Source: Candidatus Borkfalkia faecavium
GTDB lineage: Bacteria; Bacillota; Clostridia; Christensenellales; Borkfalkiaceae
Reading direction: 5' to 3'
DNA length: 51,027 nt
Assembly (NCBI GenBank): GCA_019114755.1
Contig: DXEW01000029.1
Coordinates: 112,443 to 163,469, forward strand
The position numbers and the translations under genes were made by a program. Under the pieces are notes generated by a model. It ran no database searches. It worked only from the letters and a program-made list of their open reading frames with translations, and was not told where the DNA came from. Each line of letters opens with the position of its first letter. Position 1 is the first letter of the stretch. This document shows, piece by piece, positions 20,450 through 28,552 of this stretch.

Positions 20450-22480
20450 TCAGTGCACGAGCGAGCCGATCTCGGCGTCGTCGGCGGCGAAGAGCACGCG
20501 GCAGGCGCCGTCCGAATTGGTGGAGGCGAGCAGCATGCCGTTGGAATATTCGTTGCCGAACTTGTGCGGCTGCAGGTTGACCAGCACGACGATCTTTTTG
20601 CCCACGAGCATATCCGGCTCGTATTGGTCAGCGATGGACGAGACGATGACGCGCTCGCCGGCGCCGTCGTGCAGGGTGAGCTTCATCAGCTTGTTGGTCT
20701 TGCGCATGGGCTTGGCGGAGAGCACCTTGCAGACGCGGATGTCGCAGGCGTCGAACGCCTCGATGCCGATCGTCTGCTTGAAGGGCGCGGCTTCGGGCAC
20801 GAACTTGTCTTCGGCGGGGGCTGCGGGCGCCTCTTTCGCCTCTACGGGCGCGGGCTCTTCCTCTTTGGCGTCGGGGTCTTCCGATTCGGGCAGAGAGAAG
20901 TCGAGCAGGCGCAGGTAGCGGTCGGCGTCGACGGCGAAGAGGTACAGGTACAGGCGCGGCCCGCGGTCACGGCCCAAAATCAGGTTATACACGTCTTGGA
21001 AAAACTTGCTCTGCACCTGTTTGAGGGCGTTTTTGTCTTCCGCCTTGTCGGGGAACACCTGCTTGGGGATGGCGTACAACTCCGACTGCAGCGAATCGAG
21101 GGTGTAGCCGCCCGCGGCGATGTAGTCGTGCAGGGCGCGGACGCAGGCGCGCTCGGGCTCTGCCATGGTGCGCCAGTACTTCCAGTTGCGCTTTTTGAGG
21201 ATGATGTACTCGCTTTCGGGCGAGCAGGTCTTGAGCCAGAACTTCGCCTTTTCAAACAATTCCGAAAACTCCTCTTTTGTGTACGGCGTTCCGATCTTTT
21301 GGAACAGCTTTTCCATCATGTCGGGATTGAAATCGACGACGCTGCCCAGGTCCACCAGCTGGCTCATGGGCACGGGGACGAAGTTGCGCCCGGCGATGAG
21401 GCTGTTTTCGATGATGCGCTTTGTGTTCTCGTCGGCGGTGCCGGCGCGGACGGCGCCGACCATCTTTCCAAATTCAAAATACTGGCGCAGGATCTCGTCG
21501 CTGAGGCAGAAGTCGAACGCCTTGAGCGGCTCCGTCTTGGCGTACAGCCACAAGATCATTTCCGGCGGGTACAGCTTCAAGAGGAAATCGGGCGTCATGT
21601 TGAGGCCGGAAGAGCCGGACATTTTGCCCACGCTCCCCTTGATGCCGATAAACTCGTACCCCTGGAAGAGGGGCGGGTCGTAGCCGAAGACCTGTTTTGA
21701 AATGTCTTTGGCGGTGTCGTAACTGCCGTTTTTGGAGGCGTGGTCTTTACCGCCCGGCTCGAAATCGACCCCTTCCGCCTTCCAGCGCATAGGCCAGTCT
21801 ATCTTCCATTGCAGCTTGCAGTTGAAGTCTTTGGTGAAGTCGAAATCGCCCTCGTGCCCGCACTCGCACACATAGTGCGCCTTGGTGCAGTCTTCCGAGA
21901 GGGAGACGATCTTGGTGCTGTCTTTATGGCAGTGCGGGCAGAAGATGCTGACGGGGTAATAATTTTTGCGCTCTTCTTCCGTCGCATCCTGCGTGCGGTG
22001 ACTGTCTAAGATGGAAAAGATCTTGTCGCGGTTTTTGAGGGCGAAGATGATATATTCCGCATACCTGCCCGAACGGTATTCCTTGGCCTGATAGCGGTAT
22101 TCCATCTGGATGCCGAAGCGCTCGACGGAGACCATGAACTCCTTTTCAAAGTGGGCGGCGTACGACTCCTCTTTGCCGAAGGGGTCGGGGATGTCTACAT
22201 ACGGGCAGCCGATGTACTGCTCGAACGAGTTGTTGCCGAGGTAGTCGGAGACGTTTTTCGGCACCTTGCGCAGGCGGTCGAACTCGTCCCACGAAAAGAG
22301 CAATTTTGCCTTCTTCCCCTTCTTTTGCAGCGCCCTGCACACGAAATAGCTGGTGGCTATATCGCGGAAGTTGCCGATGTGCACCGAGCCGGAGGGGGAA
22401 ATGCCGGCGGCGCAGACGTATTCTTCTTTATCCGGCTTTCTGCGGATGATCTCGTCAGCCAATTGATCTGCCCAATACAT
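20450..22480 (-). CDS. lysS: class I lysyl-tRNA synthetase fused to a C-terminal tRNA-binding (EMAP-II/Trbp111-like) domain
   Basis: A 676-residue protein. Residues 1 to about 530 are a class I LysRS, the archaeal/spirochaete type: HIGN at 34-37, KMSGS at 286-290, zinc-binding pairs CPHC (181-184) and CECG (206-209), and the DHASKNGSYDTAKDI stretch. A Glu/Ala/Pro linker (about 535-565) joins an OB-fold domain (568-676; IEAFDACDIRVCKVL...ERVIVSSIA...VVLVNLQPHKFGNEYSNGMLLA) like the C-terminal domain of dimeric MetRS. It charges tRNA-Lys; the extra domain probably adds tRNA affinity or dimerisation. The start is ATG 22480 with GGAG 8 nt upstream. Its own promoter and terminators make it monocistronic. 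Confidence 0.93.
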   Translation of the reverse strand: MYWADQLADEIIRRKPDKEEYVCAAGISPSGSVHIGNFRDIATSYFVCRALQKKGKKAKLLFSWDEFDRLRKVPKNVSDYLGNNSFEQYIGCPYVDIPDPFGKEESYAAHFEKEFMVSVERFGIQMEYRYQAKEYRSGRYAEYIIFALKNRDKIFSILDSHRTQDATEEERKNYYPVSIFCPHCHKDSTKIVSLSEDCTKAHYVCECGHEGDFDFTKDFNCKLQWKIDWPMRWKAEGVDFEPGGKDHASKNGSYDTAKDISKQVFGYDPPLFQGYEFIGIKGSVGKMSGSSGLNMTPDFLLKLYPPEMILWLYAKTEPLKAFDFCLSDEILRQYFEFGKMVGAVRAGTADENTKRIIENSLIAGRNFVPVPMSQLVDLGSVVDFNPDMMEKLFQKIGTPYTKEEFSELFEKAKFWLKTCSPESEYIILKKRNWKYWRTMAEPERACVRALHDYIAAGGYTLDSLQSELYAIPKQVFPDKAEDKNALKQVQSKFFQDVYNLILGRDRGPRLYLYLFAVDADRYLRLLDFSLPESEDPDAKEEEPAPVEAKEAPAAPAEDKFVPEAAPFKQTIGIEAFDACDIRVCKVLSAKPMRKTNKLMKLTLHDGAGERVIVSSIADQYEPDMLVGKKIVVLVNLQPHKFGNEYSNGMLLASTNSDGACRVLFAADDAEIGSLVH

Positions 22481-22515
22481 AAAGTTCACTCCAAGTTCTA
22501 TTGAATATCCTTACC

Positions 22516-22613: not shown

Positions 22614-22647
22614 AAGACGCTGAACGACTCATTTTTTGGGTGATCTT

Positions 22648-23478
22648 ATGGAATTTACAAAAGGCATCAAAGACGGGCTGCCCATCGCCCTGGGGTATGT
22701 GCCCGTCGCGTTCGCGTACGCCGTGGGGGCGGTGGACCGGGGCTTTCCGCTGTGGTTCCCCATCCTCATTTCCGCCAGCAACTTTACGGGCACGGGGCAG
22801 TTTGCCGGCACCAACCTCATCGCCGCGGGCGCGAGCCTGGCGGTGCTGTTTGCCACCATGCTCGTCATCAATATCCGCTATGCGCTGATGTCGCTGTCGC
22901 TGTCGCAGAAGATGGAGGGCTTCCCGCTGTGGCAGCGCGCCGTCATCGCCTTCGGGGTAACGGACGAAAACTTTGCCGTCGCCATCCGCCGCCCGCAGAA
23001 GCTGACCTTCCCCTACCTGATGGGGCTGATGAGCTGCTCTTTCTGCGGCTGGGTGGGCGGCACGGTGCTGGGCGCGGCCCTCGCGGCGATCCTCTCCTCT
23101 CTTCTCACGGGCAGCGCCGCAGCCTATTACCAGCTCGCCATGAGCGCCTTCAACATCGCCCTGTATGCGATGTTCGTCGCCATCGTCATCCCCGCCGCCC
23201 GCGAAGAGCGCAGCGTACTGCTGCTGGTGGCGCTGTCGGTGGCGGCAAGCTGCGTGTTCTACTTTGTGCCCGCCCTGCAGGCCCTCCCCGACGGGCTGGA
23301 GATCGTCATCTGCTCGATCGTCTGCACGGTCGCCGTGTCGCTGCTCTTCCCGCGCAAGGAAGAGGGTACGGATAAACAGGAAGAAACGCCTGGCGCGGAA
23401 AAGGCGGAAGGTGCGCCGGGCGCGGAAAAAGCGGAAGAAGCGAAAGGTGAGCCGGGCGCGGAAGGAGGGAAGCAATGA
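22648..23478 (+). CDS. azlC: AzlC-family branched-chain amino acid exporter, large subunit
   Basis: A 276-residue membrane protein of the AzlC/YgaZ (LIV-E) family that exports branched-chain amino acids together with AzlD. Family features are GIKDGLPIALGYVPVAFAYAVGA, ASNFTGTGQFAGTNLIAAGA and NIRYALMSLSLS, and there are about seven to eight membrane segments to residue 235. The last 35 residues are hydrophilic with tandem PGAEKAE-like repeats, which is unusual for AzlC. The start at ATG 22648 has a GGTGAT site; a TTG at 22636 is less likely. It overlaps azlD by 4 bp (ATGA). Confidence 0.9.
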   Translation: MEFTKGIKDGLPIALGYVPVAFAYAVGAVDRGFPLWFPILISASNFTGTGQFAGTNLIAAGASLAVLFATMLVINIRYALMSLSLSQKMEGFPLWQRAVIAFGVTDENFAVAIRRPQKLTFPYLMGLMSCSFCGWVGGTVLGAALAAILSSLLTGSAAAYYQLAMSAFNIALYAMFVAIVIPAAREERSVLLLVALSVAASCVFYFVPALQALPDGLEIVICSIVCTVAVSLLFPRKEEGTDKQEETPGAEKAEGAPGAEKAEEAKGEPGAEGGKQ

Positions 23479-23795
23479 ATATCGCCTCTATGCTCGTCGG
23501 CGCCGCGGTGATGTTCGCCGTCACCTACCTGTGCAAGGGGCTGACGCTGCTGTGCTTCCGCAAGAATATCAAAAATACCTTCGTCAAGTCGTTTTTATAC
23601 TACCTGCCCTACAGCGTGCTGGCGGTGATGGTGTTCCCCGTCATCCTCTTTTCCACCTCCTCTATCTGGTCGGGCATCGCGGGGACGGCGGTGGCGCTGC
23701 TGCTCGCGTACTTCCGCAAGGGGCTTCTGGTGGTGGCTCTCTCTTCCATCGCCACCGTATTTGTGGTGGAACTTGCCATTATGCTGCTCGGCTGA
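23475..23795 (+). CDS. azlD: AzlD-family branched-chain amino acid exporter, small subunit
   Basis: A 106-residue hydrophobic protein with four predicted membrane segments, typical of AzlD/YgaH. The central PYSVLAVMVFPVILF segment corresponds to the family's conserved proline-containing helix. It overlaps azlC by ATGA, with GGAGG 9 nt before the start, so the two are translationally coupled and presumably form one exporter. Nothing readable follows for about 215 bp except the promoter of the next gene. Confidence 0.88.
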   Translation: MNIASMLVGAAVMFAVTYLCKGLTLLCFRKNIKNTFVKSFLYYLPYSVLAVMVFPVILFSTSSIWSGIAGTAVALLLAYFRKGLLVVALSSIATVFVVELAIMLLG

Positions 23796-24703: not shown

Positions 24704-25651
24704 TTACAGCACCTTCGACAAAAAGTCGCGCAGGCGCTCGTTCTGCGGGTTCCCGAACACCGCTTCGGGCGGGCCCTGCTCCTGTATTTTGCCGTCTGCC
24801 ATGAACATGACGCGGGTCGCCACTTCGCGGGCGAAGCCCATCTCGTGCGTGACGATGACCATGGTCATCCCCTCGTCGGCGAGCTCTTTGATGAGCGCCA
24901 GCACCTCGCCGACCATTTCGGGGTCGAGGGCGGAGGTAGGCTCGTCGAAGAGCATGACCTTGGGGTTCATGGCCAGTGCCCGCACGATGGCGATGCGCTG
25001 GCGCTGGCCGCCCGAAAGGGTGGACGGATAGACGCTCGCCTTGTCGGCGAGGCCGATGCGGGTGAGAAGGCGCATGGCGTTGCGCTCGGCGTCTTCTTTG
25101 ATCTGCTTTTTGCTCGTCTGTATCGGCTGCAGCGGCTGCTTTTTGGCGGCGCTGCGGAAGAGGTTGCAGAACTTGATGCGCAGGTTCTGCCGCTTGGTCT
25201 TGCGAAGGTCCTGCAAGCCCACGTGCACGGGCGCGAGCATGATATTCTTGAGCACGTTCATGTTGTTGAACAGGTTGAACTGCTGGAACACCATGCCCAT
25301 GCGGCGGCGCTGCAGATTGATATCCACCTTCAGGTCGCAGAGGTTGTTGCCTTCAAAAAAGACATAGCCGTCCGTGGGGTCTTCGAGCACGTTCAGGCAG
25401 CGCAGAAAGGTGCTCTTGCCGCTGCCCGAAGGGCCGATGACGGCGACCTTTTCGCCCTGCACGATCTTTTCGCTGATGTCGTCGAGCACGACCAGATCGC
25501 CGTAGCGCTTGGTGAGGTGCTGTACCTCGATGAGCGCGGCGGGGTCGCACGGCTCGACGGGCGTCTTGCTCTCTTTGCCAAACTTGGGCTGATACGCCTT
25601 TTTGTCCTGTTTCCGCCTGTTTGCCGCGGCGATCTTTTCAGCGTCTTTCAC
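24704..25651 (-). CDS. polar amino acid ABC importer, ATP-binding subunit with unusual insert
   Basis: A 315-residue ATPase of the GlnQ/PAO type. Walker A GPSGSGKS is at 73-80, the Q-loop VFQQFNLF at 121-128, signature [15 protein letters not shown] from 212, Walker B VMLFDE at 232-237, D-loop SALD and switch His in [12 protein letters not shown]. Homologues are about 240-255 residues. The excess here is a 40-residue N-terminal extension and a Lys/Arg/Gln-rich insert at about 145-185, between the Q-loop and the signature. The GTG start at 25651 has AAGGAGG upstream and overlaps the permease gene by 14 bp. It is the last gene of a binding protein-permease-ATPase operon. Confidence 0.9.
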
Positions 25652-26327
25652 TCTTGCGCATCCTCCTTTCGATCAAGCGGATGATGACGGTAAAGATGAT
25701 CACGATGACAAGATAGACCAAGGCAAGGAAAACATACGGAAGAATGATCTTGTAATCGTTAGAAGCCAAAGAACTAAATGCCAGTGTCAAATCAGTTGTG
25801 CCGACATAACCTGCGACGGAAGTATCCTTGGTGATGGCAATCAACTCGTTACCCAGCGTAGGGATCACATTTTTGACCGCCTGCGGAAAGACGACGCGCA
25901 GCATAGTCGTTGCAAACGAAAGGCCAAGCGTGCGCCCCGCTTCCGTCTGGCCGATATCGACGGACTGGATGCCGCCGCGCATGATCTCGGAGACATATGC
26001 ACCGCTGTTGAGGCCGAACACAATGACAGACTCCCACACACCGGGAATATTCAGTTTTAACGGAAGAAAGATGACAAAATGGAAAACGAGCAATTGCACG
26101 ACGATCGGAGTGCCGCGAAAGAGCGTGGTATAAACATCTCCCACAACCGCAAATACGCGCGCGACTTTATTGCGCGTACCGGCAACGTGGATCACGGCAA
26201 CGAGCGTGCCCAAAAATATACCGATGACCAAGCCTATAAGGGCGATTTTCATGGTATTTTGCAAACCCTGCAAGACAAGCTTATAGCCGTCGTAGGTTAT
26301 AAATTGTTCGTAAAAGCTCTCCCACAT
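25638..26327 (-). CDS. polar amino acid ABC importer, permease subunit (HisM/GlnP family)
   Basis: A 229-residue permease with about five membrane segments. The N-terminal family block [37 protein letters not shown] and the EAA loop ([22 protein letters not shown]) that docks on the ATPase are all present. ATG 26327 lies 5 nt past the binding-protein stop; a TTG at 26336 overlapping that stop is possible. By eye its codons are more AT-rich than those of flanking genes, as are those of the binding protein, hinting at separate ancestry of the operon. Confidence 0.92.
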
Positions 26328-26332
26328 TTGCG

Positions 26333-27268
26333 TCAACCGTTAATGCCGTTCACTGCCTCGGCGAGGGTAAATTTATCGCCGACGACGACGCGCAGCCTTG
26401 CGCCTGCGAGGTCTTGTACTGCAAGCCCGATAGAATTATACTGTTTGATCTCTTTGAATACGTCAGCAAAACCTTTGAAGTCGTCCCCCATCGTGCCGCT
26501 GTTATCACCGGCAAGATAGGTATAACCGGTCTGCCCGGTAGCTGCGCCTGCGATCTCACCCGTAAGGGTGTTCAATACTGCAACAACGTCCGCTTTTGTC
26601 TTGCAATCATCAAATGCGATGTCATCGGAGAGGACTGCGACGCGCTGTGCCGCGTTATAATAGCTGTCAGAAAAAGTAACGGCTTCCGCACGATTGGGCG
26701 TGACCGTCAAGCCGGCCATACCGATATCCGCCTGAATGCCGTCCGGCGCCACAGCTGTGCCGTCTTCACTGTCACCCGCATAATCGTTGCCGGAAACGGT
26801 AGGGATGACCGACTCAAACTTCATATGGCGGATGACGAGCGTCTTGCCCAGCGCATCGGCAAACAATTTGGCGATGTGCATATCGATACCTGCGAAATAT
26901 GCTCCCTGGAAATATTCAAAAGGAGCAAATTCTGCATTGGTCGCCACGACGAAATAATCACTGCGATCCGCCCCGGCGGGAACTTCCGTAAGGACGTCGC
27001 CCAAGTTCTTCGCCGTGCCGTCTGCCTCGGCGTCAAACAATTCGTCGATAGTAACGCCGTTCAAACCATCTTCACTCTTAAGATCGGCGATATAACCATT
27101 GATCGTTTCGGTCAACTCACTGCCCTTCGGGAGAATGAAAGCGTATTCCTCTTCCGTCAAATCGATCTCAATAATTTTGACCGAAGTTCCGCCGCTGCAG
27201 GCAGTCACCGAAAATGCCATAACCGCAGCCAAGACTGCAGAAGCGGCAATCGTCAGAAATTTTTTCAT
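26333..27268 (-). CDS. amino-acid ABC importer, substrate-binding lipoprotein with permuted domain order
   Basis: A 311-residue family-3 (SBP_bac_3) binding protein anchored by a lipobox (VTAC, Cys24). The usual N-terminal motif of the mature fold, FVVATNAEFAPFEY, begins only at residue 106. Residues 38-80 (TEEEYAFILPKGSELTETINGYIADL...) match what is normally the C-terminal end of this family (EEYGIAV-KG-ELL-INKALAELK). The protein instead stops after QDLAGARLRVVVGDKFTLAEAV, where ordinary members would continue into that segment. I infer a circular permutation. Ligand-loop elements GLTVTPNRAEAVTFSDSYY are present. AGAGGT precedes the ATG; the frame extends to 27328. Confidence 0.88.
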   Translation of the reverse strand: MKKFLTIAASAVLAAVMAFSVTACSGGTSVKIIEIDLTEEEYAFILPKGSELTETINGYIADLKSEDGLNGVTIDELFDAEADGTAKNLGDVLTEVPAGADRSDYFVVATNAEFAPFEYFQGAYFAGIDMHIAKLFADALGKTLVIRHMKFESVIPTVSGNDYAGDSEDGTAVAPDGIQADIGMAGLTVTPNRAEAVTFSDSYYNAAQRVAVLSDDIAFDDCKTKADVVAVLNTLTGEIAGAATGQTGYTYLAGDNSGTMGDDFKGFADVFKEIKQYNSIGLAVQDLAGARLRVVVGDKFTLAEAVNGING

Positions 27269-27557: not shown

Positions 27558-28433
27558 CTATTCTGCATGCAGGGTGCGCAGGATGTGCTCCGCATACGCG
27601 CCCGCCACGTTGACGCCCGTCACCTTTTCCGCCTCGTTGAACATGGCGTTGGAATTGACCTCACAGACGAAGGGTAGCCCGCCCTCGTCTAAGATATCGA
27701 CCCCGCAGTAATCCAGCCCCAGGAGGGCCGCGCAGCGCTCTGCGGCGGCGGTAAAGGCGGGCGGGGGCGATGCCGCCTCGCCGCGGCCGCCCAGCTCGAC
27801 GTTGGAGCGGAAGTCCGCCTCGTTTTTGCGGCGCATGCAGGCGACGGCTTTGCCGCCGACTACCAAAACGCGCAGATCCTCTCCCCGTTTTCCTACCCGT
27901 TTTTGGTATAAGTGCGGGACCAGCTTCCATTCCTCGGCGAGCTGCCGCAGGGCGGCTTCGCTTTCTACGAGGCGCACGCCGTCTCCCCAGCTGCCGAAGC
28001 TTTTTTTTGCCACCAACGGATAGCCGAGCCTTTCCCCCACGGCGCGGACGTACTCTTCGCGCACGGCGGCGTCGGTATAGTAACAGAGGGGCGCGGGCAG
28101 GGTATCGGGCAGATGCAGGCCGTGCCCTGCGAGGGAGATGTAGGTCGTCATCTTGTCGTCGCACGCCTCCACGGCGGCGGCGCTGTCGAACAGGCGCACG
28201 CCCGCCTTTTCCAACATGTGCGAGAGGTACTTGTCTTTATCGAGATAGACGACGCAGTCGCACGGCTCGGCGAGGGAGATGTTCCCCCCTTCCACCGCGC
28301 ACAAAAATCCGCCGTTGCGGCGGATGAGGCATTGCGCCCCGCGGGCGCGCAGCTCTTCGGCGATGCGCTCCGCCTGGCGAAGCATGGCGGGGGCGCGGAT
28401 ATAGGCGTTGACGAGGACGATGACTTTGGGCAT
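27558..28433 (-). CDS. RimK-like ATP-grasp ligase
   Basis: A 291-residue ATP-grasp enzyme of the RimK/LysX type, which joins a carboxylate to an amine or thiol through an acyl-phosphate. The ATP site shows LVAKKSFGSWGDGVRLV, and metal-binding residues lie in LDYCGVDILDEGGLPFVCEVNSNAMF. The N-terminal substrate lobe begins VIVLVNAYIRAP. Relatives modify ribosomal protein S6 or coenzyme F420, or act in peptide synthesis; none of these can be chosen from sequence. The start is ATG 28433 after GGAAGGA; the longer frame to 28547 looks spurious. It follows the cupin gene by about 120 bp on the same strand. Confidence 0.87.
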   Translation of the reverse strand: MPKVIVLVNAYIRAPAMLRQAERIAEELRARGAQCLIRRNGGFLCAVEGGNISLAEPCDCVVYLDKDKYLSHMLEKAGVRLFDSAAAVEACDDKMTTYISLAGHGLHLPDTLPAPLCYYTDAAVREEYVRAVGERLGYPLVAKKSFGSWGDGVRLVESEAALRQLAEEWKLVPHLYQKRVGKRGEDLRVLVVGGKAVACMRRKNEADFRSNVELGGRGEAASPPPAFTAAAERCAALLGLDYCGVDILDEGGLPFVCEVNSNAMFNEAEKVTGVNVAGAYAEHILRTLHAE

Positions 28434-28552
28434 ATAGGTTTCCTTCCCGCATATAAAAAATAGCGGACGCGGCGGTGCACGCAAAACAGGCGCAGCTCGC
28501 CTACGCATAACAGTAAAAAAACAGCGCCGATACAAAGACCGGCGCATAGTGA

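Follow-up and report, generated by a model that had tools for sequence, protein, structure and literature searches.

A circularly permuted family-3 solute-binding lipoprotein in Candidatus Borkfalkia faecavium and the likely repeated change of domain order in its family

The window analysed here, a stretch of 51,027 nucleotides from Candidatus Borkfalkia faecavium, holds on its minus strand a PAAT-type importer operon in which a solute-binding protein (SBP) gene is accompanied by one HEQRo-type permease and a GlnQ-type ATPase. The SBP belongs to family 3 (SBP_bac_3), whose members can be described as three modules: Y is lobe 1, extending from LVVATNAEFAPFEY as far as the first hinge; Z is the lobe-2 core, from KIGVQ... 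to the D298 strand and the last helix; X is the remainder, comprising the last lobe-2 strand (VKII), the hinge strand (EEYAF) and the C-terminal helices. Ordinary SBPs run Y-Z-X, whereas the window SBP runs X-Y-Z. The features of the operon are as follows.

24704 to 25651, minus strand: GlnQ-type ATPase, longer by about 36 residues between Q-loop and signature motif (spacing 89 against 53)
25638 to 26336, minus strand: GlnP-type permease (open reading frame list; BPD_transp_1 and HEQRo_perm_3TM matches)
26333 to 27268, minus strand: permuted SBP lipoprotein gene, order X-Y-Z, 311 amino acids plus stop (open reading frame; normal-order profile)
27197 to 27268, minus strand: signal peptide and lipobox, residues 1-24 (VTAC24; sequence, and helix 2-23 of the AlphaFold2 model)
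27023 to 27181, minus strand: segment X, residues 30-82 (C-terminal profile, 31 bits on 29-66)
26957 to 27022, minus strand: X-Y linker, residues 83-104, leading from the old C-terminus to the old N-terminus (gap between segments)
26633 to 26956, minus strand: segment Y (lobe 1), residues 105-212, running from FVVATNAEFAPFEY up to the first hinge (Pfam SBP_bac_3, alignment to GlnBP 5-120, conservation)
26735 to 26785, minus strand: extra loop within Y, about residues 162-178 (some 17 residues; alignments, pLDDT below 50 at 164-167)
26339 to 26554, minus strand: segment Z, residues 239-310, lobe-2 core up to the VKII strand, carrying D298 (profile, conservation)

The permease has a TTG start, or else an ATG three codons later, which overlaps the stop codon of the SBP gene or comes after it. 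A preliminary description of this DNA had called the permease and ATPase otherwise ordinary, which stands for the gene order and fails for the enlarged ATPase. The ATPase insert lies at about residues 135-190; across related operons the spacing from Q-loop to signature ranges from 53 to 168, and it seems to track clade, not SBP order. Immediately upstream of the SBP gene is a RimK-like ATP-grasp protein (27558-28547, minus strand), and an AzlC-AzlD branched-chain amino-acid transport pair lies near the operon (22636-23795, plus strand). Also encoded in the window, at 20450-22489 on the minus strand, is a class I lysyl-tRNA synthetase (PF01921) that carries tRNA_bind (PF01588) as its C-terminal domain, an unusual pairing.

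The SBP continues VKIIEIDLTEEEYAFILPKG... after the signal peptide and Cys24, a cysteine that is invariant across the 60 rows of the permuted-SBP alignment A3, the window protein included. Segment X, of which residues 30-63 read VKIIEIDLTEEEYAFILPKGSELTETINGYIADL, follows the lipobox; in an ordinary SBP_bac_3 protein its counterpart, made up of the last lobe-2 strand, the hinge strand and the C-terminal helices, closes the chain. The preliminary description had recognised the C-terminal strand and helix in this block, with which the hinge strand also travels; it had placed the cut at EEYGIAV, while the actual cut falls inside lobe 2, before the VKII strand. The chain terminates ...LRVVVGDKFTLAEAVNGING, with the C-terminal sequence VVVGDKFTLAEAVNGING, a few residues beyond the end first quoted. 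The extra loop within Y is common to the homologues L005-L009 and missing from the other rows of the alignments examined.

Pfam SBP_bac_3 (PF00497) matches the window SBP at 56.9 bits against a cut-off of 26.4, and all 60 rows of A3 match it at E 0.01 or better. In a phmmer comparison with E. coli GlnBP, residues 106-238 correspond to positions 5-120 and residues 19-68 to positions 164-212, an inverted order; the second match has 8.4 bits and is not significant alone. The main test profile, with 229 model positions, was built from 29 normal-order relatives, excluding the rearranged homologue L169; all of its sequences are normal-order, but profiles of permuted proteins served to place their segment borders. 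Residues 28-70 match model positions 176-219 (22 bits) and residues 106-305 match 2-171 (128 bits). The two homologous parts jointly cover the reference in swapped order, and the collinear succession of lobe 1, lobe 2 and C-terminal strand and helices that marks SBP_bac_3 is absent. Used by itself, the C-terminal piece of the profile reaches 31.0 bits (i-E 4.3e-9) at residues 29-66. The highest-scoring stretch among 5000 shuffles of the protein has 9.7 bits, and the highest in any other open reading frame of the window has 2.6 bits. A 30-protein version of the profile that includes L169 gives the same permutation result. These matches bear out the central claims of the preliminary description, namely that an SBP C-terminal end precedes the mature start, that the normal mature start comes at residue 106, where FVVATNAEFAPFEY begins, and that the protein is a natural circular permutant. 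Of the checks it had proposed, aligning the halves separately with the family profile gave complementary coverage and nothing that refutes the claim, and the search for homologues of the same order found them abundant in the genome samples.

Could the front segment be an extra domain or linker that merely resembles an SBP C-terminus, the real fold being complete or truncated on its C-terminal side? The short match of 8.4 bits in the single-sequence comparison would suit such a reading, which we regard as extremely improbable in view of the profile score against shuffles and the complementary coverage. The normal C-terminal piece stands upstream of lobe 1 in 177/177 X-Y-Z and 39/39 Z-X-Y proteins. 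The X-Y-Z proteins end a median of 3 residues past Z, and a second X, looked for after Z in these proteins, was not found. Nor is the front piece a spare copy, given that the match on the C-terminal side goes no further than position 171 of the 229 in the model.

An assembly or gene-calling artefact in a metagenome bin deserves almost no credence. The window genome is indeed incomplete (89.88%) and in 38 contigs, and one X-Y-Z homologue of the order-wide sample, L131, has an internal stop codon (it is kept in the counts). Against this, the same order is present in the single-contig genomes G632, G660 and G779 and in records whose titles name the isolates Thermoclostridium caenicola DSM 19027 and Thermobacillus xylanilyticus XE, and a lipobox-like Cys lies 5-29 residues ahead of the first element in 174 of the 177 X-Y-Z proteins. 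Divergence at the protein level is also low: segment X has a dN of 0.024 relative to L005, and its dN/dS against the nearest relative (one pair) is 0.011, a rough value because dS is near saturation even there. The window SBP is under purifying selection. On the single-contig genomes, the low dN and the normal-order profile match, the extra domain, the assembly artefact and a pseudogene were all rejected.

The AlphaFold2 model of the window SBP, made from 60 permuted sequences, is confident (pLDDT 90.8, pTM 0.82), as is that of the Thermoclostridium caenicola homologue (pLDDT 92.3, pTM 0.81). In the window model, strands 30-33 and 40-46 and helices 52-64 and 74-82 precede the first strand of Y. 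Foldseek, which aligns in sequence order, ranks ArgBP and GlnBP entries highest. The alignments cover about 204 columns, and the target TM is about 0.63 for ligand-bound structures and lower for several apo ones; a score of about 0.63 is as expected because a sequential aligner must leave X out. The best Foldseek matches include Thermotoga ArgBP entries, and Thermotoga ArgBP forms helix-swapped dimers. X might by analogy act in trans, the X of one molecule completing its neighbour in a domain-swapped dimer. We think this very unlikely, since the monomer model is confident and the X-Y linker is tightly kept, with a median of 18 residues in the 177 X-Y-Z proteins (interquartile 18-20), as for closure in cis; the median is 20 in the 39 Z-X-Y proteins.

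The amino-acid site of GlnBP we take to consist of D10, F13, F50, G68, T70, R75 and D157. The window SBP keeps equivalents at F114, F151, G186, T188, R193 and D298, which are conserved in all orders, and all of these except D298 lie in segment Y, together with N111, the Asn that stands at the position of GlnBP D10 both here and in most relatives of every order. R193 is kept in 174/177 X-Y-Z, 39/39 Z-X-Y and 30/30 Y-Z-X proteins, and D298 in 176/177 (with one gap), 39/39 and 30/30, the 30 including L169 in both cases. In alignment, V30 of the window SBP falls on GlnBP F173, which would set the new N-terminus, and with it the lipid anchor, in the small lobe, as the preliminary description had proposed in placing the anchor beside the other lobe; the small domain of GlnBP spans 90-180 in the available part of the source (PMC13229503).

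How widespread is this arrangement? The window SBP is matched in 74 of 101 genomes, its own and those of relatives. Of the 396 genomes in the order-wide sample, at least 38 yield one match that spans the permuted model; the 35 of these that were examined are all X-Y-Z, and among at least 32 rows with the pattern of a second permutant, the 21 examined are all Z-X-Y. The class-wide sample adds spanning matches in at least 36 of 391 genomes, 36 of 36 being X-Y-Z. Of 299 genomes in the phylum sample, 38 match at E 1e-30; 33 of these lie outside the class, and none of the 33 rows covers the permuted model from its start. One of the 33, L261 (G897), is a Z-X-Y SBP, so permutation is not confined to the class; another, L269 (match 42-284), is a tandem SBD-SBD-permease protein. 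A contig scan gave at least 539 relatives, the best 80 of which are all X-Y-Z and include the Thermoclostridium caenicola and Thermobacillus xylanilyticus records as well as Thermobacillus sp. ZCTH02-B1.

Classification of 246 loci, a sample biased by retrieval and containing some duplicates of the same gene (e.g. L028/L114, L029/L120, L030/L118), gives 177 X-Y-Z, 39 Z-X-Y, 29 Y-Z-X and one, L169, cut within lobe 1. Dropped before this count were L001, a normal-order paralogue with Z below threshold, and L002 and L003, which are copies of the window. Thinning below 80% identity leaves 147 loci, 86 X-Y-Z, 32 Z-X-Y and 29 labelled Y-Z-X, L169 among the last. Whatever the order, the partner is the same: a permease lies directly downstream in 173/177 X-Y-Z, 37/41 Z-X-Y and 53/55 Y-Z-X cases (L169 counted with the last) and is fused to the SBP in 1, 3 and 0, respectively. 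The in-frame fusions are L139 (X-Y-Z-TMD) and L226, L227 and L228 (Z-X-Y-TMD). Among the 60 listed of 82 PDB sequences for the permuted profile there is no solved structure of the permuted order, and the best match across the junction comes only from the tandem SBD1-SBD2 of GlnPQ (6h30).

Phylogenetic analysis indicates that the orders are intermingled. The careful SBP tree comprises 89 of the 147 thinned loci over 206 columns, with the segments set in a common order. It requires 16 order changes with L169 as its own state and 15 without it, where the minimum for three orders is 2, although such counts do not separate repeated gains from gains followed by reversions. The larger quick SBP tree of all 147 loci gives 17. 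A quick permease tree, with 87 of the 89 loci and few well-supported branches, gives 20 changes, or 19 without L169, and shows largely the same mixed groups as the SBP tree, with some rows placed elsewhere.

It could be argued that there was a single ancient permutation and that the mixed pattern reflects tree error, paralogy or gene transfer. Many branches are weak, and most sampled X-Y-Z proteins fall in a few large groups. Even so, 0% of 200 bootstrap SBP trees give a single origin to any of the three orders, and the well-supported branches alone, with L169 left out, force at least 6 changes for X-Y-Z, at least 4 for Z-X-Y and at least 7 for Y-Z-X. The permease is an independent gene, and transfer alone cannot alter the order on a gene's own tree. 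Close pairs point the same way: over 198 columns, normal-order L242 shares 80% identity with the permuted L209. A single permutation is therefore very unlikely. Three further proteins, L121, L165 and L147, are 62-65% identical and have three different orders.

Other cut points and tandem forms exist as well. L169 (G176:C99) appears by eye to be cut within lobe 1, with its first strand, ...QLVVLTNVPFSPFEYLA, at the C-terminus, and its profile match begins at model position 20. L297 (G752:C1, a 3.26-Mb single contig) is cut within Z, running through model positions 130-228 and then 5-127. L296 (G495:C31), with 1000 amino acids, reads Z-X|Y-Z-X|Y-Z-X|Y plus permease, that is, three Z-X-Y units in a row, and includes two complete SBP domains and a permease domain. 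L298 and L299 are X-Y-Z proteins that, because of their low scores, probably belong to another subfamily and stand outside the trees.

Together, these results make it likely that order changes happened many times in this family, and that the circular order is labile, with lobe 1 (X-Y) and Z acting as interchangeable modules around two hinge strands. The best tree puts the number of changes at 16, and its well-supported branches taken alone at no fewer than 7; they run between all three orders and take place beside the same permease, and the cuts of L297 and L169 add to them.

What could move a segment in this way? A permuted order would result if an SBD-SBD tandem duplicate lost its two outer parts. 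In the tandem GlnPQ chain 6h30, the match to the permuted profile is contiguous and runs from the tail of SBD1 into SBD2. When a tandem SBD-SBD query is used, Z-X-Y genes (G463, G556) align at 103-352, X-Y-Z genes (G744, G632) at 185-420 and 191-430, and normal-order genes at about 250-480; each order is thus a contiguous window of a tandem duplicate. The existence of a further cut point and of a tandem array also favours permutation by duplication, although the duplication intermediates found belong to other subfamilies. Alternatively, X or Z may have been displaced as a block of some 150 bp by cut-and-paste, or by fission and fusion. At the DNA level L242 and L209 align along 1.3 kb of the operon downstream and 0.5 kb of the SBP body, collinear apart from X, which matches over 121 bp elsewhere, so that only a short block is displaced. 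Neither the loci analysed nor the matches listed for 391 genomes include a plain Y-Z-X-Y-Z-X protein of this subfamily. Tandem SBD-SBD proteins that hold the different orders as contiguous windows do exist, however (6h30, L269, L296), no separate halves happened to be encountered, and we consider displacement of a block possible but the less favoured route.

We are highly confident in the overall reading: the window protein is a working, lipid-anchored type II amino-acid SBP of a GlnPQ/PAAT-type importer and is circularly permuted, its order probably having arisen by tandem duplication and loss of the outer parts, in a family with many order changes. The old C-terminus would be joined to the old N-terminus through a linker of about 18-22 residues, making lobe 1 one continuous stretch (X-linker-Y), and the chain would be opened instead within lobe 2, ahead of its last strand. 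X is expected to fold back and restore both hinge strands and the pocket; with these kept, the protein is predicted to bind a polar amino acid between its lobes. The closed form would then dock on the permease and hand over the amino acid as usual.

The consequences may lie in the tether and in the hinge. The membrane anchor, which pulls on a strand of lobe 1 in ordinary SBPs, would here pull on one of lobe 2, and this shift may be selectively favoured, an idea close to the one raised for Tp0684. The Z-X-Y proteins likewise place the anchor on lobe 2. L169, cut within lobe 1, would keep it on lobe 1, which speaks against the shift as the only reason for permutation. Simulations of GlnPQ SBD2 describe the C-terminal helix as a lock on the open form, according to the available part of the report (PMC7679957). 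The equivalent of this lock lies in X, which is tied by the linker to lobe 1, while the C-terminus of lobe 2 is free, so rates of opening and closing may differ.

With ordinary SBP_bac_3 binders (GlnH/GlnBP, ArgBP; PF00497) the window SBP shares family, ligand-site residues and an operon of GlnP-type permease and GlnQ-type ATPase; it differs in circular order, in its new termini in lobe 2, in a continuous lobe 1 and in an anchor on a lobe-2 strand. Collinear profiles split such proteins, and annotation pipelines may consequently misread them as truncated. A family with more than two orders has a precedent in the DNA methyltransferases, among which several circular orders are found. Saposin/swaposin and the DNA methyltransferases are the textbook cases of permutation by duplication, in which tandem duplication is followed by a new start and stop, in the part of the review available (PMC3320104). 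The mechanism proposed here is the same, but those are other folds, and the window family combines three cyclic orders and further cuts within one bacterial SBP family beside the same partner gene. GlnPQ SBD1-SBD2 (6h30; PMC8025302, available part) offers a natural model of the duplicated intermediate, since the SBD1 tail and SBD2 together read as the permuted order; unlike the window SBP, it consists of two complete normal-order domains fused to a permease and is not permuted.

The closest parallel is Tp0684 (TpMglB-2) of Treponema pallidum, a sugar binder assigned to 'Type Ic' or 'Cluster Bc' SBPs and, like the window SBP, a natural circularly permuted and lipid-anchored protein (PMC4990184). 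Ligand binding and conformational change survive permutation in Tp0684, and its authors raise the possibility that the topology is an adaptation to anchoring. Tp0684 is a type I (cluster B) protein in which the first three N-lobe strands lie at the C-terminus and a fourth cross-over is created, whereas the window family is type II, family 3, serves an amino-acid importer, has the last segment at the front and shows several cuts and repeated changes. The Pfam, PDB-sequence and listed Foldseek matches of the window SBP are to family-3 amino-acid binders and related proteins, not to a type I (cluster B) permuted fold, and the two are set apart by these family matches rather than by direct comparison. 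In the full-text literature on permuted SBPs and the permutation surveys covered, which were available mostly as titles and abstracts and did not extend to subscription papers and preprints, we found no report of permuted family-3 SBPs; natural SBP permutation appears there only in Tp0684 and its relatives, as a type I sugar binder.

Repeated changes of order in the window family have left the sequence family, the ligand-site residues and the partner permease as they were, with pairs as close as 80% identity. Most natural circular permutants have, to our knowledge, been described as single events. The family therefore offers a natural series, in effect an experiment, on how permutation arises and how it affects folding and hinge motion, and it lets one ask whether the position of the membrane tether is selected, as has been raised for Tp0684.
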